Shown here: in pieces, positions 30,260 through 52,869 of the stretch
Layout of the letters: every line of letters starts with the position of its first letter
Position numbering within the stretch: position 1 is the first letter of the stretch
Assembly: GCF_014696135.1 (NCBI RefSeq)
Contig: NZ_JACJPP010000007.1
Coordinates: 124,001-188,000 of the forward strand
Reading direction: 5' to 3'
Origin: Nodosilinea sp. FACHB-141
GTDB lineage: Bacteria > Cyanobacteriota > Cyanobacteriia > Phormidesmidales > Phormidesmidaceae
Length of the DNA stretch: 64,000 bases
Position numbers and translations under genes: made by a program
Notes under the pieces: model-generated
The model's database searches: none
What the model was told of the DNA's origin: nothing
The model's input: the letters and a program-made list of their open reading frames with translations, nothing else

Positions 30260-30909
30260 GGTTTTAAGATCCTCAGTGCTGCGATCGCGGCATTTTTGCG
30301 CGCTTCTTTGATGCTGCGGCCTTGACCCATGCCATAGCTGGTTCCGCCCGCCCAGACTTCTAGGATGAATACTTTAGCGTGGTCGGGGCCAAGTCGCTCT
30401 TTTTCTAGGTAGGTGGGCAAGGTGCCGCCCATGTGGGCCTGCACATATTCTTGCAGCTCGGTCACTGGGTCGGTGGCTTGAAGGTCTAGGGCGCGATCGA
30501 TGAGGGGGCTAACGATCGCCTCAACATAGCTAAGGGCGGCGGCAATGCCAGCGTCTAAGCGGTAAGCGCCGATCACCGCTTCAAACATGTCGGCCTGAAC
30601 GCTGGGATTGTGGCGCTCGTGCTGGGCTCCAGCTCCCAAGCGCATTTGGTTGGGAATGCCTAGCTTTACGGCTAGCTCTGCTAGGGAAGGCTCATCGACG
30701 AGGCGATCGCACCGCTGCGACATTTCCCCCACGGCTAGGTGAGGATAGCGAGCAAAGATTAAATCGCGCACCACAACTTCAAGAATGCCGTCGCCCAAAA
30801 ACTCTAGGCGATCATAGTCGGGGCCTTCGTTAGGGTGTTCGTTGGCGTAGCTGCTGTGGGTGAGCGCTTGCTGAAGCAAGGCTGGATTTTGAAAGTGAGG
30901 CAGGGACAT
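30256..30909 (-). CDS. rnc: Ribonuclease III
   Basis: Double-strand-specific endoribonuclease for rRNA and small-RNA processing (217 aa). The RNase III signature RLEFLGDGILEVVV (about residue 35) and the second acidic patch DMFEAVIGAYRLD are present. The C-terminal dsRNA-binding domain runs from about 147 (DPVTELQEYVQAHMG) to YGMGQGRSIKEARKNAAIAAL. The acidic active-site residues (Glu and Asp in LEFLGDG, Asp and Glu in DMFEAV) are kept. It is a short cyanobacterial form and precedes the SDR gene with a 4-bp overlap. Confidence 0.9.
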   Translation of the reverse strand: MSLPHFQNPALLQQALTHSSYANEHPNEGPDYDRLEFLGDGILEVVVRDLIFARYPHLAVGEMSQRCDRLVDEPSLAELAVKLGIPNQMRLGAGAQHERHNPSVQADMFEAVIGAYRLDAGIAAALSYVEAIVSPLIDRALDLQATDPVTELQEYVQAHMGGTLPTYLEKERLGPDHAKVFILEVWAGGTSYGMGQGRSIKEARKNAAIAALRILKP

Positions 30910-30924
30910 TTTGGGCTCGACAGT

Positions 30925-30995
30925 AAAACCGGGTTCCTTGCTCTAAACTCTAAAAGCTAATTTAGCTATTAAAGCTTAGCTGAAACCCGGTTTCA
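30925..30995 (-). terminator. Hairpin terminator after the HNH gene
   Basis: Read on the minus strand, AAACCGGGTTTC pairs with GAACCCGGTTTT around an AT-rich loop, 118 bp past the HNH stop and just upstream of rnc. It has the same stem as the terminator at 5744-5806, so it may be a dispersed repeat used as a terminator. Confidence 0.55.
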
Positions 30996-31113
30996 AAACT
31001 GGTGAGCTTAGGTCAGTTAAGGGGTGTCCCTGAAGTAGCGATCGCCCTCGCCCGGTGAAGTGTTAGCAAAAACTAACAGTTGGCTTGCTCTGCTTTACCT
31101 GACCTAACAACGA

Positions 31114-32166
31114 TTAAGGCATGTTATAGTGATTCTCGAAAAATGACTGAAGTTTTTCTAATTTAATGACAAGAGCATCAAGATTTTTGGTGCTTCGTTC
31201 TGTCTCGAACTTACCCCCCTCTGCATGAAATAGATATTCAATAAGATCTTTTGGTTCACAGCTTTCACTGCCATGCCATCTGTGGAAACCCTGATGTATC
31301 TCAGCATGCATGACGAGCAGGTTATCCAAGACATCTGCTAAGTCAGGTCTTGAGCTGCGATCAAACAAATGATGAACATGGAGATCAAAAGGTTGAGAAG
31401 CAGTACGCCTCTTTAAAGAAACTTGGCAGACGTTGTCAGCAAGTCTTTTGGCTTTTTCCATTGCCTTTTTTATTCGACTGTCGGCAGACTCCAAGTATTT
31501 TCTTTGTTCTTGAATCGCCTCTTCAATTTCTTCAAATACTGTATCTGTCCATGCTTTTCGGGATGCCCGCGATCGCCTTCCATGATTTTGAGACATATCT
31601 TGGGCTAAGCTAACGATTCCAACTTGGCTCCAGTATTGGTTGTTTTCTATAACATCAAAATGCTTTCCGGGTTTCAGCTGCTCTTGTCCTTCTAAACTAT
31701 CATTATCCTGTATTCGCTTAATTGATGCATTTAATCCCTTTCCGTTTGTGCGCAGAATACGAATAATCTTTGGCCTTCCTAGAAAAACCAAATCAGACGT
31801 CAAGCTTACGTCATCCAGACTTGAAAATTCGATAGAAACTTGTCTTCTTACTAAGTGACGACGTATTCTTTTGCGCCTATGGGTAAAAGCTTCTAGAACT
31901 TCGTCCATTAAACTAGCGAAAAATCCTTGTGTTTCAACCTCCTGTAAGTACTTTGCAAGTGCTACGGCTCCTGCTTCATAAAATTGCCGCTTTCTTACAT
32001 CCTTTCTCACCCACTCGAAATGCTCTCCCTCAATCAGATCCCATTCATCGTCAGCTTTATCATCAAAAAACTTGCAGACTCTGTAGAGTTTTTCAATTCT
32101 AATTTTTAATATATTTGCTGTTTCTTGATCAGACAAAAGAATATGTTGTCGTTGTGATGCCGGCAT
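31114..32166 (-). CDS. HNH-nuclease protein with tandem HTH-like N-terminal modules
   Basis: A 350-aa protein. The C-terminal part (about 250-310) is an HNH nuclease: CQVSLKRRT, then FDLHVHHLFDRSSR, LDNLLVMHAEIHQGFHRW, giving the H-N-H pattern (HH, N, H). The N-terminal half has two related segments, LIEGEHFEWVR...YEAGAVALAKYL (about 45-80) and LKPGKHFDVIENNQYWSQVGIVSLAQDM (about 170-200), similar to DNA-binding modules of phage-type regulators. The region is AT-richer than its neighbours with one HIP1 site. It starts 23 bp after a J-domain gene and is likely co-transcribed with it. Role unknown; defence is a hypothesis. Confidence 0.75.
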   Translation of the reverse strand: MPASQRQHILLSDQETANILKIRIEKLYRVCKFFDDKADDEWDLIEGEHFEWVRKDVRKRQFYEAGAVALAKYLQEVETQGFFASLMDEVLEAFTHRRKRIRRHLVRRQVSIEFSSLDDVSLTSDLVFLGRPKIIRILRTNGKGLNASIKRIQDNDSLEGQEQLKPGKHFDVIENNQYWSQVGIVSLAQDMSQNHGRRSRASRKAWTDTVFEEIEEAIQEQRKYLESADSRIKKAMEKAKRLADNVCQVSLKRRTASQPFDLHVHHLFDRSSRPDLADVLDNLLVMHAEIHQGFHRWHGSESCEPKDLIEYLFHAEGGKFETERSTKNLDALVIKLEKLQSFFENHYNMP

Positions 32167-32189
32167 TTTTAATACTCACTTAGAAATAA

Positions 32190-32741
32190 TTAACGCAGCA
32201 AAAGTAAGGAATCTCGCATCTTTTGAAGCTCTTCAAAGACTTTGCGGTCTCCACCAGCATCGGGATGATGTTTTTTGGCTAGCTGACGAAAAGCTGTATT
32301 AATGTCATCAGCAGTAGCGGTTTTTGAATCGAGTTGAAACACCTGCCAAGGGCGGAAATTTTTGAGTACGTCAATCCCATTAATAGTGTTTGGCCCAATT
32401 TCATCGCGCTCGTTTTCAGGGACTCGCACCCATTCGCGATAGAGTGTCAGCCAGGAATCTTTGTAACTAAAATTGAAATTGCGTCCAGCAATAGCCAGCT
32501 TAAACGCCTTATTTTTCTTAAGGGTCTTATAATCAGGACAGTTAAACGCTTGGCAAACTGCTTCCTTCAATTCGTTTAGGCTCGGTTCAATTTCTTTGAA
32601 TTTCCCACCATTCACAAATTCAGCAAAGTCTAATAAAATCTGCTCATCGTAGTTGTGCTGCTTTGCTAGCTTGCGAATTTGTGCTCGAATCTGGTTGATA
32701 TTTGCTGGCTTGCGACGGTTTGACGACTTTTTCTGGCTCAT
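32190..32741 (-). CDS. J-domain (DnaJ-like) protein
   Basis: A 183-aa protein with a basic N-terminus (MSQKKSSNRRKPANINQIRAQIRKL) and a C-terminal J domain (about 132-183): WQVFQLDSKTATADDINTAFRQLAKKHHPDAGGDRKVFEEL, with the essential HPD loop. J domains stimulate the ATPase of Hsp70 (DnaK). There is no Gly/Phe or zinc domain, so it is a specialised co-chaperone with an unknown target. It is the first gene of a pair with the HNH nuclease (23-bp gap). ATG at 32741 is used; the open frame continues to 32834 with weaker support. Confidence 0.8.
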   Translation of the reverse strand: MSQKKSSNRRKPANINQIRAQIRKLAKQHNYDEQILLDFAEFVNGGKFKEIEPSLNELKEAVCQAFNCPDYKTLKKNKAFKLAIAGRNFNFSYKDSWLTLYREWVRVPENERDEIGPNTINGIDVLKNFRPWQVFQLDSKTATADDINTAFRQLAKKHHPDAGGDRKVFEELQKMRDSLLLLR

Positions 32742-33132
32742 GAAATTTCTAGGGTAGAGACTGAATGCGGAACTGGGTACATAAGGGGACATAATATTTC
32801 TAGCTACAATGTTCCCAGCAACAAACCGGAACATCGCATCTGTATCACTTAATCTTGATAATCTTCACGTGTGGCAGTGCTCGTGTGAGGGTTTTGGCTT
32901 CGTTCAACGATTCTCAAAACGCTACCTGTTATTTGAAAGCCCAGCTATCGGTGTGAAACTGGCTATTGTCTAGTTACAAGACTCTTTGACCTCTGTAAAT
33001 TGCTGATCCAGAGTTGTAATTAGGTATTTTGAGCGAGATGATGAAGTCATCGCAACCTTGGTTAACTTCGTCCGTTATCCTCGAAGGTTCTTCACCGCTG
33101 TCGATCGTTCATCCAGGCCCTTCGAGACAAGC
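32742..33132. other. Spacer upstream of the J-domain gene, no feature seen
   Basis: About 390 bp of AT-rich sequence that must carry the promoter of the J-domain/HNH pair. No open frame, known RNA or clear operator was recognised. Confidence 0.4.
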
Positions 33133-33188
33133 AACAAAAATCAACCCCCAAGACTCGTAGGTTCTACTTACGAATCTTGGGGGTTGAG
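33133..33188 (-). terminator. Terminator of gltD
   Basis: On the minus strand a stem of about 18-20 bp (CAACCCCCAAGATTCG... paired with ...TCTTGGGGGTTG) is followed by ATTTTTGTTG, 32 bp past the gltD stop. Confidence 0.88.
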
Positions 33189-33220
33189 CTAAGTAATAGA
33201 CTGGACTACGAGTTGATAGG

Positions 33221-34705
33221 CTAAGGCAATTCGGTGGTGCCCATTAGGTAGCGATCGCACTCCCGCGCCGCCCCACGCCCTTCATTGATCGCCCACACCA
33301 CCAGGCTCTGGCCCCGACGACAATCCCCAGCGGCAAACACCCCCGGAATCGAAGTGGTGTACTGCTCATGCTCAGCCTTCACATTGCTGCGGCCATCTTT
33401 TTCTAGACCCAAAGCATCAATCAACGGCTGCTCAGGACCAAGAAAGCCCATGGCCAGCAGCACCAAATGCGCAGGGACAACCTTCTCGGTGCCGGGCACA
33501 TTCTGAGGCACAAACCGCCCGTTTTCGTCTTTGCCCCACTGAATCTGCACCGTGTGAACGGCCTTGACGTTACCCTGCTCATCGCCCTCAAACTTGGTGG
33601 CGGTGGTCAGGTAGGCGCGGGGGTCGTCGCCAAACATAGCGGCGGCTTCCTCCTGGCCGTAGTCCATCTTGTAGACCTTGGGCCACTCGGGCCAGGGGTT
33701 GCCCGCCGAGCGAGTTTCAGGCGGCTGGGGCATGATTTCCACCTGGGTGACGCTGTTGCACCCGTGGCGAATGGAGGTGCCCACGCAATCGGTGCCCGTG
33801 TCGCCGCCACCGATAATCACCACATCTTTGCCCGCCGCCGAGATGTAGTCGTTGCCGGGGTAGCCATCCAGCAGCGATCGCGTATTGGCGGTGAGAAACT
33901 CCATCGCAAAGTGAATGCCCTTCAGCTCACGCCCTTCGATGGGCAGGTCACGGGGCTTAGTGGAGCCGGTACAGAGCACCACCGAATCAAACTCTTTGAG
34001 CAGGTTCTCAGCAGAAATGTCTTTGCCGACTTCGGTGTTGCAGACAAAGGTGACACCCTCGGCCTCCAGCACATCCAACCGGCGCTGCACCACCTGCTGC
34101 TTATCGAGCTTCATGTTGGGGATGCCGTACATCAGCAGGCCGCCGGGGCGATCGGCCCGTTCGTACACCGTCACCCAGTGACCCGCCGAGTTGAGCTGGG
34201 CGGCGGCGGCGAGGCCAGCGGGGCCAGAGCCAATCACGGCCACCTTCTTGTCCGTGCGCTGCTGCGGTGGCGTAGGAGTAATCCAGCCCGACTCCCAGCC
34301 CTTTTCGGCAATGGAATACTCAATATTTTTGATTGTCACCGGGGGGTTGGTGATGCCTAGCACGCAGGAACCCTCGCAGGGGGCAGGGCAAACGCGCCCG
34401 GTAAACTCGGGGAAGTTGTTGGTCTTGTGCAGCCGCTCCAGGGCTTCTTCCCACAGGCCCCGGTAAACCAGATCGTTCCATTCAGGAATTAGGTTGTTGA
34501 CGGGGCAACCGCTGGCCATGCCGCTGATGGTCATGCCGGTGTGGCAGAAGGGGGTGCCGCAATCCATGCAGCGAGCGCCCTGGGTGCGGAGGCTGTCCTC
34601 CGGCATGTGGAGGTGAAACTCATCCCAGTTGCGAATGCGATCGGCGGGGGCGACTTCTTGCGCCACTTCCCGCAGATATTCCATAAAGCCAGTCGGTTTT
34701 CCCAT
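33221..34705 (-). CDS. gltD: Glutamate synthase small subunit
   Basis: NAD(P)H/FAD subunit of glutamate synthase (494 aa). It has the iron-sulfur Cys clusters [23 protein letters not shown] and [10 protein letters not shown], the FAD-binding [15 protein letters not shown], and [15 protein letters not shown] for the NADPH fold. The final [19 protein letters not shown] is typical. It lies downstream of gltB on the same strand with a spacer of about 200 bp that contains a MITE-like repeat. A strong terminator follows. It supplies electrons to GltB in the GS-GOGAT cycle. Confidence 0.96.
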
Positions 34706-37900: not shown

Positions 37901-39542
37901 AGTCGATGGGCGGGTTGGTCACCTGAGCAAACAGCTGGTGGAAATAGTCATACAGCAGCCGAGGCTTATTCGACAGCACGGGCAGCGGCGTGTCGGTGCC
38001 CATGGCACCCACGGCTTCGACCCCGCTCTCGGCCATGGGCTTGAGCAGCAGGCGCAGCTCCTCGAAGGTGTAGCCAAAGGCAGTTTGGGCGATCGATAGG
38101 GGTGCAGGGGTGGGTAGGGGCGCAGCATGCTGCGCCCCTACAGGGTTTGTGCCATTGCCGTTTAAACCTGCGGGGTTCGTGGACTCTGGCAGATCGCCCA
38201 GTTTCACTAGGTGCTGATCGAGCCATTCTCGGTAGGGTTGCTCGGCGGCGATCTGGTGCTTGATCTCTTCGTCGGAGACAATACGGCCCTCTTCCATATT
38301 CACTAAGAACATGCGGCCCGGCTCCAGGCGACCCTTGTAGGCGACTCGCTCGGGCTCGATGGGCAGCACCCCGGCTTCCGAGGCCATGATCACCAAGTCA
38401 TCTTTGGTGACGGTGTAGCGGGAGGGGCGCAGGCCGTTGCGATCGAGCACCGCACCCATCATGGTGCCGTCGGTGAAGGCGATCGCCGCTGGGCCATCCC
38501 AGGGCTCCATCAGGCAGGCGTGGTATTCGTAGAAAGCTTTTTTCTCAGCGCTCATCGACTCGTGGGCCGTCCAAGGTTCGGGCACCATCATCATCATGGC
38601 GTGGGGCAGGGAACGGCCCGCCAGGGTCATGAGTTCCAAAGTATTGTCGAAGATGCCGGAGTCGCTGCCTTCTTTGTTGATCAGGGGCTTGGCGCGATCG
38701 AGATCGCCGCCAAACAGCTCAGACTCAAACATCGACTGGCGAGCATACATCCAGTTGATGTTGCCGCGCAGGGTGTTGATTTCGCCGTTGTGGGCCACAT
38801 AGCGGTAGGGGTGAGCCCGCTCCCAGCTGGGGAAGGTGTTGGTGCTAAAGCGCGAGTGCACCAGGGCCAGGGCGCTTTCCATCGCCTCGTCGGCCAGGTC
38901 GGGGAAGTATAGTCCCACCTGTTCTGGCGTCAACATGCCCTTGTAGACCACCGTGCGGCAGGACAAGCTGGTGGCATACCAGTAGGGGTCGGTGGGGTGA
39001 ATGGCCGAGTGGGTGCGCTTGCGAATGATGTAGAGCTTGCGTTCAAAGGCTTGGTCGTCGGCCAGCTCAGGCGATCGCTGAATGAACACCTGCTGCATGA
39101 AAGGCTCGCTGGCCTTGGCCGTATCGCCTAGGGAAGCGTTGTCGGTGGGCACATCGCGCCAGCCCAGCACCTGCTGCCCTTCTTCTGCGGCAATTTGCTC
39201 AAAGATGCGACGACCTTGTTCGCGGTCTGCCGGGGTAGGTGACGAAAAGAAAAAGCCGACACCATAATGCCCCGGCCCTGGTAGGGTAATGCCCGCTTCT
39301 GCTGCTACCTTGGCCATAAATTTGTGAGGCATTTGCAGCAAAATACCTGCCCCGTCGCCAGTGTTGGCCTCAGCCCCCACCGCGCCTCGGTGGGCCAGAT
39401 TGACCAAAATCGTCAGCCCCTGCTGCACAATAGTGTGCGACTGAGCGCCCTTCATGTGGACGATGAAGCCAACGCCACAGGCATCGTGTTCGTACTGTGG
39501 ATGGTAAAGACCTTGAGCTTGGGGCGGTTGAGATAGGGTCAT
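34908..39542 (-). CDS. gltB: Glutamate synthase large subunit
   Basis: Catalytic subunit of glutamate synthase (1544 aa, normal length). Cleavage after a short leader would expose the glutaminase Cys in [10 protein letters not shown]. The FMN/synthase domain has [17 protein letters not shown] and [27 protein letters not shown], and the 3Fe-4S cluster Cys lie in [16 protein letters not shown]. The ATG at 39542 ([11 protein letters not shown]) is preferred over one 10 codons upstream. A REP-like palindrome (38114-38141) is read in frame within a linker ([14 protein letters not shown]). It transfers glutamine amide N to 2-oxoglutarate, with gltD following. Confidence 0.95.
38114..38141. repeat. 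REP-like 28-bp palindrome, copy 2, inside gltB
   Basis: Identical in all 28 bases to copy 1 (27696-27723). It lies inside the gltB frame and is translated as [11 protein letters not shown]. Flanking Pro/Asn/Thr/Gly residues form a low-complexity linker just before the conserved [12 protein letters not shown]. Confidence 0.85.
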
Positions 39543-40807
39543 TGATTTATCGAGCAACAGGAAGGAACTCAAACAGACATAGCTATGGACCGTGCCTAGC
39601 TATTCTGCGATGAGCCATGGGGTATTGACTAGTCCCTTAAGAAAATAATCAGATCAATGTCTTAAGAAGTTTGCGAAATATCACAAAAGCTAGGGCTTTT
39701 TAACCGCCAAGAATTTCTGCTAAATCGAGCACATCTATAGGAAAAGATATATTGTGCTCGCCAGTGAATTGTCTTGGGTGAGCCAGAGTCGCTTGTGTCT
39801 ATGCTAGCAGCCTGATTTTTGCCAAGTTGAAAGGCTGTTTGCAAAGGGACCTGTCGCAACTTGATTCACAGCCCCTTGAAAGAGTGTATTCAACCCCAGA
39901 ATCTCTTTTGAAGAAGGATATTTAAGGAGAAACTCAGATTCTTGCTATGTAGGGATAGAACCTCTAAATCAATATTCAAGCATATTGCTGCGATGAGTAA
40001 TCAGCAACAAAGCTAAGCTTAATCAGGCCTTATTTTTGCTCGCATATACTGGCTGAATCAGTTTAAAGTGTAACTACCCTGCCGTAATCTTTATGAGATT
40101 TAAAGGGCTGGCAAATTGTGCACTCTATCTATTGAATGGCAGCAGTTTCAAAGATCACATTCTCCTGCAGGCTGTGTTGATTAGATCGAGTGATCTGGTT
40201 ATCGCTTCCTTTGGTCAGAAAAATGCTGTGAAAAGACCATGGTTTGTTCGACTACTGAGAAATGCCAGCCTCATTTTGTTGCTTTTAATGTTGTGGCGAA
40301 GAACATAGGGCGATCGCCTCACAAGGCTGACATGCCATTGAGCGGAGTTCCCTGCTTCCTTAACCTTCTCAAAAGTCTGTCTCTGCTTCCTCACCGCTTC
40401 CTTCCTAAGCAGTTAATAAGCTTTTCCTCTATCTAAGCTTTCTATATGCCTGTCTAACGAGATTAGACCCGTACACAAATTCTTGCCAAATGTCAATATT
40501 TCGCTCGATGGTTATTCTGTCAGAGCCTGAGAGTTTTTTGGCAGCGCTCTAAGGCACCTGACCCTTGATTTTGCGTTCTTCTAGTACCTATTCCCAAAGG
40601 TAGATGACGGAAAAGAAGCAACTCACTGTGTCATTAGCTTTATGGAAATTTCATTGAAGTTTATCAAAACTTTAATTAACCTCTAGTTAATCTTACCTAC
40701 CATAACTTAAGTATAAGTTTACCTTTAGATAACCTTTGACCTTCTTTTGCATAGGTTATCTGTCGCCATTGCTATTAAGTTTTGCCCCCAACTTAGGATT
40801 CATAGAC
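39543..40807. other. 1.2-kb gene-poor, AT-rich divergent spacer
   Basis: Spacer between gltB and the sulfotransferase. It holds only short open frames (such as 40093-40308) with no family features. No NtcA site of the GTA-N8-TAC form was found near gltB by eye. The HIP1 frequency is low and base composition is AT-rich, as in the flanking sulfotransferase gene. It may be decayed or foreign DNA. Confidence 0.5.
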
Positions 40808-41842
40808 ATGGTGAAGCAAGGTGCATCGCCCCGCCTTACTGCGACTTCGGCTGTTGATACGTTAACCCGAGGGCTCAGCACTCAGCGCCCTCTCGTAAAA
40901 TCTCCCTTCTTTATTTGTTGCTCAGGGCGGTCTGGTTCTACCCACCTACGCCTCATGCTGGATCACCACCCTCAGTTATCTTGTGTTGATGAAGTGGGTT
41001 ACATCACCGAGCTGGTGTCTGATGATGGCGATATGCCTGATGTGGCAACGTACCGCCAGTGGCTAGAATCTGATTTCATTTTTCAATCTTGTTGCGACTT
41101 CACTATCGACCCTGATTTAGACTTCTATGAATTGGTAAACGATTTTCTTTGCCAACAGAAGGATTGCAGCAATAAGCAGGCAGTGGGTGCAATCAGCCAT
41201 TTTGATTTCATTCGGCTTTTAAAGCTTTGGCCAGATGCACGTTTTATTCACATGGTGCGAGATGGGCGAGATGTCGCCTATTCCTGGATGAAGGAGATGC
41301 ATCTCTTTGAAAATCCTTGGTTCGCCGCTGAGAAATGGCGTGAGGCAGAGCAGGCTTGGGAGCGGTTGGCTCAGCGTCTTCCCGAGGGACAGTATCTAGA
41401 AATTACCTATGAGGATATGGTCAACGACACGGTAGGTACACTGACAGAGGTTTGTCAGTTTCTAGGTGTTGACTATGATGCTGAAATGCTGAAATTTAGT
41501 AAAGCAGGAAGCTACTTCACTTTGCCAGATCCAAAGTTTAGTGGTCTATGGCGATCGCATCTCTCTCCCTGGGAAATACAAGTAGCAGAAGCCAACATTT
41601 CAGATTTGCTCATTGATAGAGGCTATAGGCTCAGCGAACTGCCCAGGTTGACGGTTAGCTCTCTAGATCTGAAGCGGTTTAAGCTGGTGGAGAAGGTATT
41701 TATGTGGCGGCAACGCATTGGCTTTTTTGGCCTGCGTCTGTCAGCAGCTGAGTACTTCTCACGTCGCCTTGGTCTGCAGGGGTGGCACCGACGGGTAAAA
41801 CAAAACATGCATGCGATTTCAATTCCTGCTTTGAAGCGCTAG
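40808..41842 (+). CDS. Sulfotransferase family protein
   Basis: A 344-aa PAPS-dependent sulfotransferase. The 5'-phosphosulfate loop is FICCSGRSGSTHLRLML (about residue 35), the 3'-phosphate motif is HMVRDGRDVAYSW (about 150). Further conserved parts are WEQ-like EAEQAWERLAQRLPEG and LEITYEDMVNDTVGTLTEVCQFLG. ATG at 40808 (MVKQGASPR) is preferred over the long upstream frame. It likely sulfates a sugar or lipid; the acceptor is unknown. The surrounding DNA is AT-rich and gene-poor, which hints at transfer. Confidence 0.85.
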   Translation: MVKQGASPRLTATSAVDTLTRGLSTQRPLVKSPFFICCSGRSGSTHLRLMLDHHPQLSCVDEVGYITELVSDDGDMPDVATYRQWLESDFIFQSCCDFTIDPDLDFYELVNDFLCQQKDCSNKQAVGAISHFDFIRLLKLWPDARFIHMVRDGRDVAYSWMKEMHLFENPWFAAEKWREAEQAWERLAQRLPEGQYLEITYEDMVNDTVGTLTEVCQFLGVDYDAEMLKFSKAGSYFTLPDPKFSGLWRSHLSPWEIQVAEANISDLLIDRGYRLSELPRLTVSSLDLKRFKLVEKVFMWRQRIGFFGLRLSAAEYFSRRLGLQGWHRRVKQNMHAISIPALKR

Positions 41843-41889
41843 CGACCCAACAAGGCAAGACAGCCTCCGCGTTTGCCGCGTTCACTCTC

Positions 41890-41937
41890 ATCCCTGGCCC
41901 TTCTTAAAAAAGAGAAGAGCTGGGGATTTCTATATTT
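41890..41937 (+). terminator. Probable terminator of the sulfotransferase gene
   Basis: ATCCCTGGCCCTTCTT pairs, with G-U wobbles, with AGAAGAGCTGGGGAT over an A-rich loop and is followed by TTCTATATTT. It begins 48 bp past the stop. Confidence 0.6.
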
Positions 41938-42492
41938 ATGAGGTGTGAGTTTTGTATAGGCCGCAGGCCGATCGCAACCGGACGAAGTTGAACCTGTAGG
42001 GCGGGCGCGATCGCCAGGCTCATCCTCGCAGCCACAAGGGTGGCATAAAGCTGTACTGACTTCTTCAATTTGGGATTCCTAGAGCGACGCAACAGAATCG
42101 TGGGGGATAACGCAGTGGAGTGGCGAGCTGGGTAAAATCGCCCCAAGCAGGCCAATCCGCCGCCTGTAAAGCGCTGAGGCTAATTTAATCCACCGAATCC
42201 CAGCGCTGGTACGCAAGGCTTGCTGCGAATAAAACGTCCTTATTGAAAATCTGTTGCATTAATCCCGAGGCTTGGGTATCTTAGTAACAACGATAGTCAA
42301 TAGCAAAGCAACCGATGTCCCCAGGGTATCGCGTCCAGTAATTCTTAGAAAAATGCCTTAATGCTTTCTGGGAAAGGGATCCAGCTTTTTCAAACCTCGG
42401 CTGAGCCCAACACCTTAGCGTTTAGTTCAGAGTTAGTTTCAATAAGTTCTGACCCCTAGCGGTCAACACTATGGAGATTCAGTCGAGTTAAT
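41938..42492. other. Spacer of about 550 bp, no feature recognised
   Basis: GC-mixed sequence with no convincing gene; short open frames on the minus strand lack codon signal. No known riboswitch or RNA family was recognised. It contains the promoter of the downstream ferredoxin pair. Confidence 0.35.
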
Positions 42493-43559: not shown

Positions 43560-44096
43560 CTACCAGCCCAGTTTGAGGCTGTCTGGAGTGAGGAAGTGCT
43601 CTAGATGGTAAGCCCGCTCCTCGGTTTTCAGCAAAATTTGCTCGTAGAGGTAGCGAGTAGCGCGATCGCCCAAGCTCTCAGCCTGGGCAGCCAGCCGACG
43701 AATCAGTTCGATCAGCGACTGCTCAGCTTTCAGATCGTGGTCGATCATGATGCGGCAGCGGTAGGTGTCGTCGTTTTCCATGTCGAAGCAGCACAGCTCA
43801 GCCAGCTTGCCAAAGCTGAGAGGAGGAATTCCCCCCAGCCCGTGCAGGCGCTCTCCCACCTCGTGAGCGTGGCCTTGAGCCGCTTCGTAGCTCTCCTCGA
43901 AATAGTTGTGGAGCATGTAGTACTCAGAACCTTCCACAACAAAATGGTGCTTTTGGTACTGCAACGACAGGGCTGTAAAGCTGGCATAGAGCGTCGCCAG
44001 TCCATCCACCACTGGTTCTGTAACCGACTTCTCCAGCAATACTGGGTTGTTTGCCACCTCGCCATAGGTTTGCAGCAGAGTCTCAGTAATCGGCAT
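43560..44096 (-). CDS. dps: Dps/ferritin-family iron-storage and DNA-protection protein
   Basis: A 178-aa Dps-like ferritin that oxidises and stores iron with peroxide. It has YQKHHFVVEG with the ferroxidase His, then LHNYFEESYEAAQGHAHEVGERLHGLGGIP, the usual HxxxD/E helix pattern. The N-terminus is MPITETLLQTYGEV. ATG at 44096 fits the GGGGG ribosome site better than the ATG at 44102, which sits too close. It is divergent from the Fur-family gene across a 360-bp spacer that holds a palindrome. Control by a PerR- or Fur-type repressor is likely but unproven. Confidence 0.88.
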   Translation of the reverse strand: MPITETLLQTYGEVANNPVLLEKSVTEPVVDGLATLYASFTALSLQYQKHHFVVEGSEYYMLHNYFEESYEAAQGHAHEVGERLHGLGGIPPLSFGKLAELCCFDMENDDTYRCRIMIDHDLKAEQSLIELIRRLAAQAESLGDRATRYLYEQILLKTEERAYHLEHFLTPDSLKLGW

Positions 44097-44459
44097 AAGC
44101 ATCCCCCTTTTTTAGCAGTGAAAGCAGCCCTAGCCTTTCAGGGTTGCTTATTGAGCCTAGCTCATTTTTTTGAATCTAGCTAATAACTTTGTTTGCCTAA
44201 AAAAGTATGGAGAAGTGCAGAATTTAACTGTTAATAGGAATAGCGAAAATGATTTTCAATAGGTTGAATTCTTTGTATCGAAACTGATTGGCGATAGGCT
44301 CAAACCCCTTGGTGAAAGCCACTTTCAATAACAATGACTAATTTAATAAGCCTAGGGCGATCGCCCAAAATCCTGCTTTAGTTATTCCCTTCGTTAGATG
44401 TCAATGCTCTGATTTATATGGTCAACCTAACTGCTTTCTTCAATTGTGACGACCAGACG
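44097..44459. other. Divergent dps/fur control region
   Basis: About 360 bp of AT-rich sequence with the promoters of dps and the Fur-family gene. One perfect palindrome at 44245-44257 stands out; otherwise there is no open frame or RNA of note. Confidence 0.5.
44245..44257. promoter_or_regulatory. Candidate Fur/PerR operator
   Basis: GAAAATGATTTTC is a perfect 6-1-6 palindrome, in line with Fur-family site layout. It lies about 150 bp from the dps start and 200 bp from the regulator start. The match is by eye and sites of this size occur by chance in AT-rich DNA. Confidence 0.45.
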
Positions 44460-44933
44460 ATGGAACAAGATCCAGCTCTGCCTAGCTTAAATCAAGAGCC
44501 CGAACTACTCAAAACCGTTCTTAATAAGGAAGGGTTTCGGTTCACCAACCAGCGACAAAAAATACTGGACTTGTTTCAGTCGGCAGCTCTGGGTCATCAC
44601 CTCAATGCTGAAGAAATCCATCAGCAGTTGCTAGATCAGGGTGAAAAAATCAGCTTTTCTACCATCTATAGAGCGTTACACGTCATGGTCAGATTAGGGT
44701 TGCTGCAAGAGCTAGAGCTAGCTGAGGGCAGAAAGTATTACGAACTCAATACTCCCTTTATGAATCAGCACCACCATTTGGTCTGTGTTCACTGCGGCGA
44801 TGTAGAAGAGTTTGAAGATGCCAAAATGACCCAGGTGGGCAGCAATGAGAGTGCCTCCCACGGGTTCTCGCTGCTGAACTGCCAGTTTACGGTGTATGGC
44901 ATTTGCCCTAGCTGCCAGTCACTGCTGGGCTAA
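44460..44933 (+). CDS. Fur-family transcriptional regulator (PerR/Fur type)
   Basis: A 157-aa metal-dependent repressor. The N-terminal winged helix shows FRFTNQRQKILDLFQSA and ISFSTIYRALHVMVRLGLLQELEL; the metal-binding part has NQHHHLVCVHCGDVEEFEDAK and a C-terminal ICPSC pair, so a structural zinc site (CxxC twice) is present. The HHH block supplies the regulatory site. It resembles the peroxide-sensing PerR of cyanobacteria more than classic Fur, but this is not certain. An ATG 14 codons upstream (44418) is possible. It is divergent from dps. Confidence 0.88.
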   Translation: MEQDPALPSLNQEPELLKTVLNKEGFRFTNQRQKILDLFQSAALGHHLNAEEIHQQLLDQGEKISFSTIYRALHVMVRLGLLQELELAEGRKYYELNTPFMNQHHHLVCVHCGDVEEFEDAKMTQVGSNESASHGFSLLNCQFTVYGICPSCQSLLG

Positions 44934-45587
44934 ATGTCGGTAATAGTGCCACAGTAAGTGGGCCACCGCACCCCGGTAGGGATCGAGAGTTGCTGTAGAG
45001 ATCAATAGGTCCTTGCGAGTGGGGCGGCTTTCTAGATTGTGTAGCCGCTGGTAGCTAATTTGAATGGCCAAATCTGAGGCGGGGAAGCTGCTCAACCGCT
45101 GGAGGCAAAACAGTAGGTAGACTTCCGCCGTCCAAACGCCAATGCCTTTAATCTGAGTTAGATGTGCGATCGCCTCTGTGTCGGGCAATGTGGCGAGGGT
45201 TTCTAGGCTGAGCTGGCCCGACAAAATGGCGTTGGCGAGTCGCTGGCAAGTGGCGATTTTAGCTTGGCTGAGCCCCACCTGTTTGAGGGTGCTGTCTGGG
45301 GTGGCGGCGATCGCTTCAGGGGTCAACTCTATGGTCGCCATCAACCGTTGAAAGATTGCTTGGGCCGCTCTCGACGACAGCTGCTGTCCCATAATGATGC
45401 GCACCAGCGATGGCAACCCGGCGGCCCAGGCGCGAACGGTGAGGGGACCAGCTTCGGCCTCAATGTGCTGAAAGGTGGGGGCGCGATCGCACACCACCGT
45501 CACCGCCTGCCGCAGCTGAGGGCTGGGTGGCAGTAGCTCGCTATCTAGGATCTTGGCTACATCATTACGCGGCATTGCAACAATCAT
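44919..45587 (-). CDS. HhH-GPD DNA glycosylase (AlkA-type 3-methyladenine glycosylase)
   Basis: A 222-aa base-excision enzyme for alkylated purines. The helix-hairpin-helix motif is LTQIKGIGVWTAEVYLLFCLQRLSSFPASDLAIQ, with the catalytic Asp in ASDLAI. IIMGQQLSSRAAQAIFQRL at about residue 65 is the typical helical element. The frame stays open for 40 codons upstream, but the start at 45587 or 45575 (MPRNDVAKIL) fits the family. There is no iron-sulfur cluster. It ends inside the convergent Fur gene (15 bp overlap). Confidence 0.88.
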   Translation of the reverse strand: MIVAMPRNDVAKILDSELLPPSPQLRQAVTVVCDRAPTFQHIEAEAGPLTVRAWAAGLPSLVRIIMGQQLSSRAAQAIFQRLMATIELTPEAIAATPDSTLKQVGLSQAKIATCQRLANAILSGQLSLETLATLPDTEAIAHLTQIKGIGVWTAEVYLLFCLQRLSSFPASDLAIQISYQRLHNLESRPTRKDLLISTATLDPYRGAVAHLLWHYYRHLAQQ

Positions 45588-49904: not shown

Positions 49905-50536
49905 GGCATCGTACCACTGATGTTTAGGGGTAGCGCGAATTAGTTACGGTTCCTCACAGAGCACATCGACGCCCACGTTCAGGGCAATGAGAGCAGACAG
50001 AAAACGAAAAAAGCTCTTTATGACAAGATTTTGGCAATTTGAACGGCCTTTGCTATTTGTTTACTGGTTCTAGCTAGTTTTGTAGGTCGTTCAACCCAAA
50101 TTATCTACGAGAATAGCCGTTAAAGGCGATCATCCCGACGTAAACGAGAATTCAGTTAGGAGCAGATTGCTTTGCCTAGAACTGTTCATTGGCCTTAAGT
50201 CTTCCTACAGACAGGTAAAGCGCTAACTAACTTAGTTCTTCAGCAAGAGGAAGGGGCATCCCGTGGTTCCTATGATGCACGTAGTGTTGCAGCAGATTTT
50301 TTCTGCAAAAGTAGCGACGCTACTAGCTGAGACCATAAAGCCTCTCTGGAGCATAGAGCACAAAACGATAGGAAAGCTAGCTGTCACAAGCAGAAGCAAA
50401 TCGAGAGCCGCAGTCTAGGTAGTCAAGAGCAATCGTGACCTAGGAATGTAGCTACCGCTTTTCCTTGCTGGCAGTAGACAGTACTGCTCTTACAAAACTG
50501 TTCTCAAAAAACCCTTGTTACACGGAGTATCTTGCC
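49905..50536. other. Spacer upstream of thiC riboswitch and the DUF4383 gene
   Basis: About 630 bp with both divergent promoters. Small hairpins (such as GCAGA TTTTTT TCTGC at 50292-50306) occur, but no known RNA or operator was recognised. Part of the sequence just upstream of the thiC aptamer resembles that upstream of the second TPP leader. Confidence 0.4.
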
Positions 50537-51043
50537 ATGAATGAAATTAGTATGAATAGCGAACAAAAATGTGCATTAGCGCTGGGAATTATCTTCACCT
50601 TTTTAGGAATTGCTGGTTTTATTCCCGCTCTTGTCAACCTGCCTGGCGCAGGAATGGGAGCTAGTGCACCAGTAGACACAAGCGCAATTCCAGTTAGCGG
50701 TGGGCCTACTTACATAGCTGCTTACCTAAGAGGTTTTGGCTATTTGTTTGGGCTCTTCCCGACTAACCTGCTTCACAATATGGTTCACCTAGCCATCGGT
50801 GGCTTTGGCCTATTTTCGGCTACGGGTAAAGAAGGGGCGTTTAGATACAATCGATTCTTTGCTATTAGCTATTTGCTGCTTGCCGTTATGGGGTTGATTC
50901 CGCTCTCAAATACCCTCTTTGGTATCATGCCCATCTTTGGCAACAACGTTTGGTTCAACGCTGTAACAGGGGCGATCGCGGCTTACTTTGCCTTCGTCTG
51001 GCATCCTAGCCATCCCGAATCGACAGCTCCTTCTACGCAATAG
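50537..51043 (+). CDS. DUF4383-type membrane protein
   Basis: A 168-aa protein with four hydrophobic segments, matching DUF4383: CALALGIIFTFLGIAGFIP, the loop, LFGLFPTNLLHNMVHLAIGGFGLFSA (conserved NxxHxxxHLxxG), YNRFFAISYLLLAVMGLIPLS and FNAVTGAIAAYFAFVW. ATG at 50537 (MNEISMN) follows an open upstream stretch that is not part of the family. The function is unknown; in other species such proteins are linked to stress or membrane upkeep. A strong terminator follows. Confidence 0.78.
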   Translation: MNEISMNSEQKCALALGIIFTFLGIAGFIPALVNLPGAGMGASAPVDTSAIPVSGGPTYIAAYLRGFGYLFGLFPTNLLHNMVHLAIGGFGLFSATGKEGAFRYNRFFAISYLLLAVMGLIPLSNTLFGIMPIFGNNVWFNAVTGAIAAYFAFVWHPSHPESTAPSTQ

Positions 51044-51108
51044 TCGTCTAATGACTATGCAATTGGCTGGCGCTACGAATTGACTCGATAAGCGTCAGAT
51101 CTGCTTTC

Positions 51109-51145
51109 AAGCGCACGGTAATTTTTGACCGTGCGCTTATTTGAT
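51109..51145 (+). terminator. Terminator of the DUF4383 gene
   Basis: AAGCGCACGGT and ACCGTGCGCTT form an 11-bp stem over an 8-nt loop, followed by ATTTGATT, 66 bp past the stop. Confidence 0.75.
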
Positions 51146-51272
51146 TCTCAGCTGTCGCTTGCCGCAAAGCTTAGATTTGATCCGATTTACGGTTTGTGGG
51201 TAATGTCTCGGCATTGAAGATGATTGAGCCGAAATTCGATTTGGTAAACCCCGATTCATAGTCAGGAACCCC

Positions 51273-51299
51273 GTAGGGCGTAGCATGCTACGCCCCTAC
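51273..51299. repeat. REP-like palindrome, copy 4
   Basis: GTAGGGCGTAGCATG followed by CTACGCCCCTAC, a 27-nt variant of copy 3 (one base shorter). It lies just downstream of the symporter stop codon (minus-strand gene ends at 51337). Confidence 0.75.
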
Positions 51300-51336
51300 A
51301 AATTGGGGAGTGTTCATTCGGAATTTGGTATGAGAT

Positions 51337-52869
51337 CTATAGCAGTGGATCATTCGCCCGACGCTGTGTATCGGTCAAACTATCAGCCGGTAGCGAATCG
51401 CTCTCCCCGTAGGCGTGGATGTCGCGGCTGAGAATGCCAAAGTCGAAGGTCTCCGTCTTACCACCCTGAGCTTTAATCTGGATCCATACCAGGCAGACTA
51501 GCGTCGATACCACAACGGGGGCGGCAAAGCTAACCAGCAGATCGCCTGCAAAGGGTAGACCGTTCCAGGGGCTAAAGTCGGGCCGTGGGAAGAATAGGGC
51601 ACCAGTCGCGATCGCCACCACCGCACTCCAAAACGCCATCGTCCCCGTCAAGCGCCGTGAATATAGGCCAAACAGCACTGGAAATGCTGCTCCGGCGCAA
51701 ATCAAGTCGGCTAGCAGAAACAGGTACAGCACGTTGTAGCCCTGAGAGGCAATCAGAATGGCGGGGATGCCGATGAGCACGGTTAGAATGCGCGAAGCCC
51801 GCAAAATGCCCGCCGTGGGCGTGGTCGGCATCAGCCGCACCAAATCAAGGGTAAAAACACTCGCAATGCCGTTCAGTAGTGCACTCAGGGTACTCATCAC
51901 TAGGGCTAGCACCAGCAGCAAAATGCCCATGCCCACCCAGGTGGGCAGCTCTAAGGCCTGAACCAGCGAGAAAAAGGCGCGATCGTCGTTGAAGCCAAAG
52001 TGCATCGCCAAAATGCCCAGCATGCCTGCAAGCAACAGCATTGGCCAAATGACCAAAGACGATCTCAAAAAAGACCGCCGCACAACGGTATTAGTTTTGC
52101 AGGCATAGACCCGTTGCCAGTTGCCCTGGTTAAACATTTCGGCTGCAATCACAGCGATCACCAGGGTGGCCCCAAATTTAATGCCGGGACCGTTAGCTAG
52201 GCTTAACAGTTCTGGCGCAGACTGGGTCACAGGGGCGATCGCATTTCCCCACCCTCCTAGGGCAACTACCGCTACACCAAAGCTGAGCAGCAGCAGCGGC
52301 ACGATCACCACAAACTGAAGGGCATCGGTAAAGATAGACGCCTCTAGCCCGCCGACAACGGTGTAGATAAAGACACCTGTAATGACGAGCAGGGCAGTCA
52401 ACCAGAGGGGCACCCCGGCCATCAGTTCGACCGCTTTGGCGATCGCCGTCAGCTCCGCCGCCAGGTAAATGAACATGTAAAACACCCCAATGCCCAGGGT
52501 TAGCAAATACATGGCCTGGCCATAGCGGTGAAGCACGTATTCATTCAGCGAGTGACCGTTGGGCATCAAAAACCGCATGCGGGTGCCCAAAAACGCCAGC
52601 ATTGCCGCTGGGGTAGCCTGCCCAATGCAGTAGCCCACAATGCCCGCAATGCCGCTGGTGGCTCCTACCTCGGGTGGGCTAAATAAGATCCAAGCGCCTA
52701 TGGCCGAGGCGACGATGGTCGCTAAGGCCATGCCGGTGCCCACCCGGTTACGGCTCACCACGTAATCTTCTAGGGTGATGGTGTGGCGGCTCGCTTGCAG
52801 CAAACCCAGCAGGGTAAAGCTAGCCACGGTTACTAAGATGACAGCGATCGCTGTGGCACCAATGGTCAT
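51337..52869 (-). CDS. Sodium:solute symporter under TPP control (candidate thiamine-precursor transporter)
   Basis: A 510-aa SSS-family (SLC5-type) transporter with about 13 membrane helices; conserved parts include RNRVGTGMALATIVASAIGAW, FIYTVVGGLEASIFTDALQ, GNWQRVYACKTNTVVRRSF and LSALLNGIASVFTLDLV. The start at 52869 (MTIGATAIAV) has a GAGGTG ribosome site; the TTG upstream is less likely. It lies about 195 bases downstream of a TPP riboswitch, so it is likely to import thiamine, HMP or another precursor. SSS-type carriers of this kind (ThiV) were predicted before in other bacteria from such riboswitches. Confidence 0.85.
   Translation of the reverse strand: MTIGATAIAVILVTVASFTLLGLLQASRHTITLEDYVVSRNRVGTGMALATIVASAIGAWILFSPPEVGATSGIAGIVGYCIGQATPAAMLAFLGTRMRFLMPNGHSLNEYVLHRYGQAMYLLTLGIGVFYMFIYLAAELTAIAKAVELMAGVPLWLTALLVITGVFIYTVVGGLEASIFTDALQFVVIVPLLLLSFGVAVVALGGWGNAIAPVTQSAPELLSLANGPGIKFGATLVIAVIAAEMFNQGNWQRVYACKTNTVVRRSFLRSSLVIWPMLLLAGMLGILAMHFGFNDDRAFFSLVQALELPTWVGMGILLLVLALVMSTLSALLNGIASVFTLDLVRLMPTTPTAGILRASRILTVLIGIPAILIASQGYNVLYLFLLADLICAGAAFPVLFGLYSRRLTGTMAFWSAVVAIATGALFFPRPDFSPWNGLPFAGDLLVSFAAPVVVSTLVCLVWIQIKAQGGKTETFDFGILSRDIHAYGESDSLPADSLTDTQRRANDPLL

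Follow-up and report, generated by a model that had tools for sequence, protein, structure and literature searches.

A mobile J-domain and HNH-nuclease gene pair found at the 3' ends of two cyanobacterial genes, a candidate homing-type cassette

A J-domain gene and an HNH gene between gltD and rnc

In the window, i.e. the whole stretch of 64,000 nucleotides of Nodosilinea sp. FACHB-141 analysed here, two adjacent genes are encoded on the minus strand. The first (32190..32741) specifies a J-domain protein of 183 aa, with a helical N-terminal domain and a C-terminal J-domain bearing an HPD motif, and the second (31114..32166) an HNH protein of 350 aa, made of two MerR-like winged helix-turn-helix (HTH) modules, a helical linker and a C-terminal HNH domain. 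The coordinates, the gene order and the gap of 23 bp are as the initial annotation gave them. The location between rnc and gltD also held, as the Pfam domains expected of gltD are found upstream and RNase III downstream. A further in-frame ATG for the J gene lies at 32834; the relative in locus L042 starts at the position of 32741.

The pair had been described as lying in an AT-rich patch, and between 31001 and 33000 the GC content per 1-kb window is indeed 0.405-0.416, versus 0.546 to 0.61 alongside. The same difference was found beyond this genome, the cassette having a lower GC content than its flanks in 34 of 36 non-redundant loci. Other lower-GC stretches of the window (0.42-0.50) lie at 39501-42000, 44001-45000 and 50001-51500.

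Domain architecture of the two proteins

The J protein is matched by the Pfam DnaJ model at an E value of 4.5e-8, above the family cut-off, and its HPD motif (residues 159-161) is kept in 52 of 52 J proteins in a pattern check over the fetched loci. Its AlphaFold2 model (mean pLDDT 86) retrieves J-domain folds in a VIA fold search with Z up to 8.8, as domain-level matches only. By its J-domain with HPD, and judged on sequence, the protein would belong to the J-domain proteins (Hsp40). It had been taken for a stand-alone J-domain with an intact HPD loop: the loop is intact, but the J-domain is not a bare one, since about 120 residues of predicted helical domain come first. The J module (residues 54-183) is also found in 18 viral contigs (IMG/VR, L161-L178), where it forms, with 46-48% identity, the C-terminal part of proteins some 920 aa long, and one such gene (L163, 1685-4456), which also encodes an LPD1 domain, adjoins a phage portal gene upstream. 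A relative of the HNH protein was not found in these IMG/VR stretches.

Among the Pfam and NCBIfam models, none reached its cut-off with the HNH protein, Pfam HNH_2 remaining below it; this is an annotation gap, the protein being unnamed by either collection. Three PHROG HNH families match it (E 1.3e-4 to 6.7e-4). Conservation of the HNH residues among homologues, on which the initial annotation had made its proposal depend, is strong: all 27 aligned rows share C247, H265, H266, N282, H291, H295 and C303, and the HNH core is intact by pattern in 50 of 52 proteins, with variation in L106 and L118. The C-terminal part of the AlphaFold2 model (mean pLDDT 85) matches McrA, Vvn, Cap5 and the HNH domain of Cas9 in the VIA search (Z 4.7-6.2). 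With a conserved H...N...H core in a beta-beta-alpha fold, the protein is an HNH (His-Me finger) protein.

The domains extend over residues ~5-90 (HTH), ~116-200 (HTH) and ~222-330 (HNH). That there are two HTH-like modules was borne out by a profile-profile alignment of residues 5-90 with residues 116-200 (E 2.2e-5, probability 76%), versus E values of 0.58 and 0.076 when either module was compared with the HNH part. The first module resembles MerR-type winged HTH domains (VIA Z 6.8, a middling value; rmsd 2.5, 60 residues aligned), and CbpM is among its middling structural matches (VIA Z 5.8, rmsd 3.5, 65 aligned). Fold searches with the whole models of both proteins gave no whole-protein match, and the matches from VIA were to domains only.

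Distribution, linkage and selection

The HNH protein is present in 25 of 96 relatives and was detected by profile (E 1e-5 or better, fragments counted) in 33 of 386 genomes across the phylum, a patchy distribution. We fetched 56 loci around HNH matches, many of which are closely related, so that the counts are not independent. All 49 loci with a full-length HNH gene (L042-L067, L100-L122) have the J gene next upstream on the same strand. The gap between the two genes ranges from -47 to 34 bp in the first 26 of these loci and is 289 bp in L120; such operon-like spacing is also what a type II toxin-antitoxin module requires. A J gene likewise adjoins the HNH gene in three divergent pairs (L069, L125 and L126, the latter in the window's own genome). 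As for the remaining loci, L068 ends at a contig edge, L123 and L124 are remnants with a decayed HNH gene, and a J gene was not found at L127. The flanking genes of L123 are those of L103-L105, where the pair is intact.

The divergent pair in the window's own genome (L126, 626-1883, contig C8) has a related copy in L069 (7035-8277). These copies, 82% identical in DNA, encode a shorter HNH protein (242 aa) with no MerR-like match, and a direct repeat of 134 bp flanks the one in L069.

Between the window and its two 89% relatives, dN/dS is 0.066 and 0.076 for the HNH gene and 0.030 and 0.033 for the J gene. The ratio is not low everywhere (0.39 and 0.15, respectively, for L103 versus L106), and saturation of the synonymous sites prevented the calculation of two HNH values. 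The two genes are thus an obligate neighbour pair in cyanobacteria, patchily distributed and kept under purifying selection. As the genes are neighbours in relatives and the HNH residues are conserved, neither of the two grounds on which the initial annotation would have given up the pairing applies.

Recurrence at different loci

The question of whether the pair recurs at different loci received a clear answer, as copies with 85-96% DNA identity lie in differing surroundings in three groups: the window with L042 and L043; L102 with L103-L105 and L106; and L107/L109 with L112. The window, L042 and L043 are all near gltD, yet the sequence on either side of the cassette is not shared. The common unit runs from 25-150 bp before the J gene to 0-30 bp past the HNH stop, with no other gene in common and no transposase or integrase within it. 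In searches beyond the phylum, which were of a kind that finds close relatives, neither protein had a match among 72,556 plasmid records (E up to 1e-3 for the HNH protein, up to 1e-8 for the J protein), and the HNH protein had none among 50,697 phage records.

By eye, no common target motif was found among the insertion sites. A preference for co-directional genes was considered and rejected, the upstream neighbour being on the same strand in 25 cases and on the opposite strand in 10, against a background of 343:186 (Fisher p 0.47). Candidate empty sites for L106 and L102 were likewise discarded as not clean: 119 bp are common to two contig ends of G431, possibly an assembly effect. With reference to the same gene, the cassette of G478 is placed 215 bp downstream and that of G475, judging by a partial match, some 2.5 kb downstream.

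A screen for direct repeats within 900 bp at E < 1e-4 gave positives in 7 of 53 cassette loci; among the 386 control gene pairs there were 10, including a negative-coordinate artefact. Three of the seven were rejected: the repeat of L120 is dispersed within its own locus, that of L122 resembles, by eye, a palindromic interspersed repeat, and L115 appears, again by eye, to hold tandem paralogues with a common promoter-like stretch. Two were added, namely L057, found with flanks of 2500 bp, and the window, whose E value (1.2e-4) is just over the threshold and is backed by the congener alignment described below. Displaced tails were thereby accepted in 6 of the 53 loci, for two target genes, and in the other 47 none was.

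Insertion into the 3' end of gltD

In the window, the gltD 3' end in use (33221..33275, minus strand) is probably a replacement tail. Beyond its stop codon, a stretch at 33121..33220 (minus strand), with a hairpin at about 33142-33186 as judged by eye, is common to L049 and L058 and absent from cassette-free congeners. On the other side of the pair, some 60 bp past the HNH stop, lies a decayed copy of the old gltD tail (31008..31054, minus strand), consisting of its last 41-47 bp including the stop codon. Between this displaced tail and rnc is the native gltD terminator region (30904..31007, minus strand), recognised by alignment to the native gltD downstream sequence and once located 3' of the old tail. 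Taken as a direct repeat, the displaced tail measures 49 bp with 73.5% identity. In all 13 cassette-free congeners, the native gltD end and terminator can be aligned with the stretch past the HNH gene, across the stop codon, with E values of 1.8e-5 to 2.3e-12. The cassette therefore sits within the 3' end of gltD, some 45-55 bp short of the old stop, and the tail of gltD is complete.

Displaced gltD tails were also found 3' of the HNH gene in L042 (54 bp, 92.6% identical to the tail of the window), L049 (55 bp), L058 (39 bp) and L057 (35 bp), and none in L043, the 85% DNA relative near gltD. Among the 13 cassette-free loci, of which two had less than 3 kb of searchable sequence, a second gltD tail occurs only in L128 (G020), as a weak match (54 bp, 70%, E 9e-6). 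Since this locus has DUF2283 and HicA genes in the slot and no J-HNH pair, such duplications need not depend on the pair. The gltD tails in use are no more foreign than those of the controls.

The slot between gltD and rnc also provides a direct view of cassette replacement. In L049 (G004), L058 (G008) and L057 (G017), it holds HNH proteins only 30, 28 and 29% identical, respectively, to that of the window, while the flanking DNA is 87-90% identical (L049, L058) or 76-94% identical (L057). Homology to L049 and L058 breaks at window positions 31045-31049 and 33121-33125. For the segment in between (31050..33120, no strand), DNA homology to the slot of these two loci is undetectable; their own J-HNH pair is divergent and runs in the same direction. 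More generally the slot is a hotspot, in which relatives lacking the J-HNH pair carry BrnT, HicA and DUF2283 genes (L128 and L129) and another HNH gene (L129); ORFs in the slot of L135 and L043 look similar by eye, and those of L057 were also read by eye as part of the hotspot.

A second target, the 3' end of a CHAT-domain gene

In L119 (G286) the gene upstream of the J gene encodes a CHAT domain (Pfam E 1.5e-34), and its 3' end is repeated 5 bp past the HNH stop over 188 bp with 90% identity. When the joined CHAT flanks were searched in 29 relatives, 5 matched. L158 (G461) has the cassette and a displaced CHAT tail, which begins, as in L119, 4-5 bp past the HNH stop. L160 (G373) is an empty site: 16 bp separate its native tail from a downstream sequence that also lies 16 bp past the displaced tail of L158. 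L159 (G078) is cassette-free with a differing downstream sequence.

The tree of the gene body groups L119 with L159 and L158 with L160 (0.996). When the tree is built from the last 145 bp, L160 is joined by the displaced tail of L158 (133/145 identical positions; 0.996) and the L119/L159 lineage by the in-gene tail of L158. Accordingly, the in-gene tail of L158 matches L119 at 136/144 positions versus 126/145 for its own displaced tail. Of nine diagnostic sites (columns 61-129), all 9 are of the donor type in the in-gene tail; in the displaced tail 7 are of the recipient type, 1 is of the donor type and 1 of neither. The in-gene tail is a mosaic, of the recipient type at 4 of the first 5 sites, of the donor type at 10 of 10 sites from +40 to +118, and again of the recipient type at +136; the displaced tail is also of the donor type at three sites from +40 to +42, and the gene body of L158 favours neither type (12 and 12 of 28 sites). 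In L158, then, the tail in use matches another lineage and the displaced tail matches its own, as expected of a cassette that takes a donor gene end along. In L119 the in-gene and displaced tails are alike (140/145), with no split by lineage.

The cassette has therefore been swapped between genomes and inserted in the coding 3' end of two unrelated genes, gltD and the CHAT gene; the target gene retains a complete tail, and the old tail and native downstream sequence lie past the HNH gene. The mobility of the pair, which the initial annotation had suggested, is supported by the slot swap, the gltD insertion, the differing surroundings of near-identical copies, and the empty CHAT site together with the foreign tail. 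The insertion into gene 3' ends had not been foreseen, and it speaks for a homing-type element no less than for defence.

A homing-type cassette or a conflict module

We consider that the pair is a free-standing homing-type cassette with 3'-end rescue and a co-chaperone partner, its cutting activity being putative, and we give this reading a probability of about one half. Insertion in a 3' end with the native tail displaced past the element, as in the mobile ORFs (mORFs) of fungal mitochondria, was found at five gltD loci and two CHAT loci; a foreign tail in use together with a native displaced tail is clear in L158 and was not seen in L119 or at gltD. In this reading, the tandem MerR-like modules would recognise a target near the gene 3' end and the HNH domain would cut or nick the cassette-free allele. 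Repair from cassette-bearing DNA, for which natural transformation would serve, would then copy in the cassette along with the donor gene tail, and the essential host gene could survive thanks to this tail. The J protein may associate with the nuclease or with the MerR-like part and, via its HPD and DnaK, could retain the nuclease on DNA, release it or turn it over, much as CbpA works with CbpM and HspR. In its most complete form, a cut-and-rescue cassette of bacterial chromosomes in which a MerR-HNH protein homes into conserved 3' ends with a replacement gene end, and in which a dedicated J protein couples the nuclease to Hsp70 so that spread is chaperone-dependent, the scenario is more tentative and, in our view, rather less likely than not.

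The main competitor, somewhat doubtful in our opinion, is a solitary defence or toxin-antitoxin-like module, whose HNH protein would attack invading or own DNA and whose J protein would sense phage, or restrain the HNH protein via DnaK. Gene 3' ends would then be reached passively, and one-sided homologous recombination of whatever follows gltD elsewhere could give the same picture. The turnover of cassettes within one slot fits such a module, and so do the BrnT, DUF2283 and HicA genes and the other HNH gene in the gltD slot of relatives (L128, L129); with toxin-antitoxin genes in that slot, a conflict role may still apply. A Phd/YefM antitoxin gene and a ParE-like toxin gene lie directly 3' of the HNH gene in L112 (9148-9671), a further point in favour, as is the reported role of DnaJ in phage sensing by bNACHT25 (PMC12169576). 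However, the displaced tail lies directly at the HNH stop or within 30-75 bp of it in 5 of 7 loci, for two genes, which a chance junction would not predict, and neither protein was matched in the plasmid records, nor the HNH protein in the phage records.

The surroundings also argue against this alternative. The expectation that the pair would lie near known defence genes failed: comparing 150 near with 150 distant proteins of the same loci, we saw no Pfam or PADLOC excess among the best 25 families per scan. ORFs were called mechanically, and the two sets were taken from 158 near and 174 far proteins, collected once the window and the same-site copies (19 loci in all) had been set aside; a comparison of this kind may overlook small toxin-antitoxin genes. 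A defence island as the general setting of the pair was thus rejected for these families. In the PADLOC library (2023), the HNH protein is matched by one restriction-enzyme model (E 0.0084) and the J protein by none; the pair matches no PADLOC system and, in the comparison above, does not lie among defence genes, and hence does not qualify as a known anti-phage system. Of the "mobile defence or conflict module" first proposed, mobility stood and the defence-gene surroundings did not.

Integrases often target and duplicate gene 3' ends, and the pair could thus be cargo of integrative elements with attachment sites at such ends, the integrase having since been lost. Pfam Phage_integrase occurs in 2 of the 150 near neighbours. 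Against this improbable reading, the stretch from one tail to the other contains nothing called besides the cassette in the window, L049, L058 and L158, one cassette family has two unrelated target genes, and the common unit stops at the two genes. Finally, a resident stress-regulation pair, in which a MerR-like regulator with an acquired HNH fold would work with a J partner, would recall the MerR-like HspR in operons with CbpA or DnaJ and the binding of CbpM to the CbpA J-domain (PMC4063869), but it is very hard to reconcile with the conserved catalytic HNH residues, the patchy occurrence (33/386 genomes) and the changes of location.

If a homing-type cassette it is, then a bacterial cassette that enters metabolic genes and leaves them functional, with its own co-chaperone, would amount to a natural cut-and-rescue drive, and would offer a genetically tractable system for why a nuclease needs Hsp70. 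If the function is defence instead, the system is absent from the PADLOC copy used (2023). What we judge to be new is the homing-type cassette with a co-chaperone, the homing-element kind being already known.

Comparison with known systems

Literature searches did not find a pairing of J-domain and HNH nuclease in cyanobacteria, and those for a DnaJ domain and an HNH endonuclease in one operon returned only other subjects, judged by title. The cassette shares the HNH fold with defence nucleases (retron I-A HNH, PtuB of Septu, CBASS Cap5, McrA), but the partner genes of those systems are absent at the cassette and whole-protein matches are weak (no Foldseek E < 0.001). With the free-standing HNH homing endonucleases of phages it shares a solitary HNH gene beside conserved genes and the weak PHROG matches; it differs in that no close HNH relative is present in the 50,697 phage records, and we know of no co-chaperone partner for those enzymes.

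The pairing of a J-domain protein with a MerR-like protein is also seen in CbpA-CbpM and CbpA-HspR. CbpM binds the CbpA J-domain over its DnaK-contact surface, and HspR is found in operons with CbpA or DnaJ (PMC4063869). By analogy, the MerR-like modules of the cassette may bind target DNA, and these modules or the nuclease may serve as a docking site for the J-domain, with DnaK controlling release or activity. Those systems are without a nuclease, and the J-domain is N-terminal in CbpA and C-terminal in the J protein of the cassette.

The closest parallel in genetic behaviour comes from the mobile ORFs of fungal mitochondria, in which a free-standing nuclease gene lies near a gene 3' end, the inserted tail is in use and the native tail is displaced past it. 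Examples of the hybrid host genes are atp6 of Allomyces macrogynus and atp6, atp9, cox2 and nad3 of Glomus sp., and the nucleases are LAGLIDADG or GIY-YIG (PMC3630166). Our search for homing endonuclease and gene hybrids gave only this fungal case, with no bacterial hybrid gene from a free-standing homing nuclease; such hybrid genes are described from fungal mitochondria. The cassette resembles the fungal elements in its 3'-end insertion, with a tail in use and a displaced native tail, and differs from them in residing in bacterial chromosomes, in its HNH nuclease with MerR-like modules, in its obligate J partner and in its short tails (~45-190 bp).
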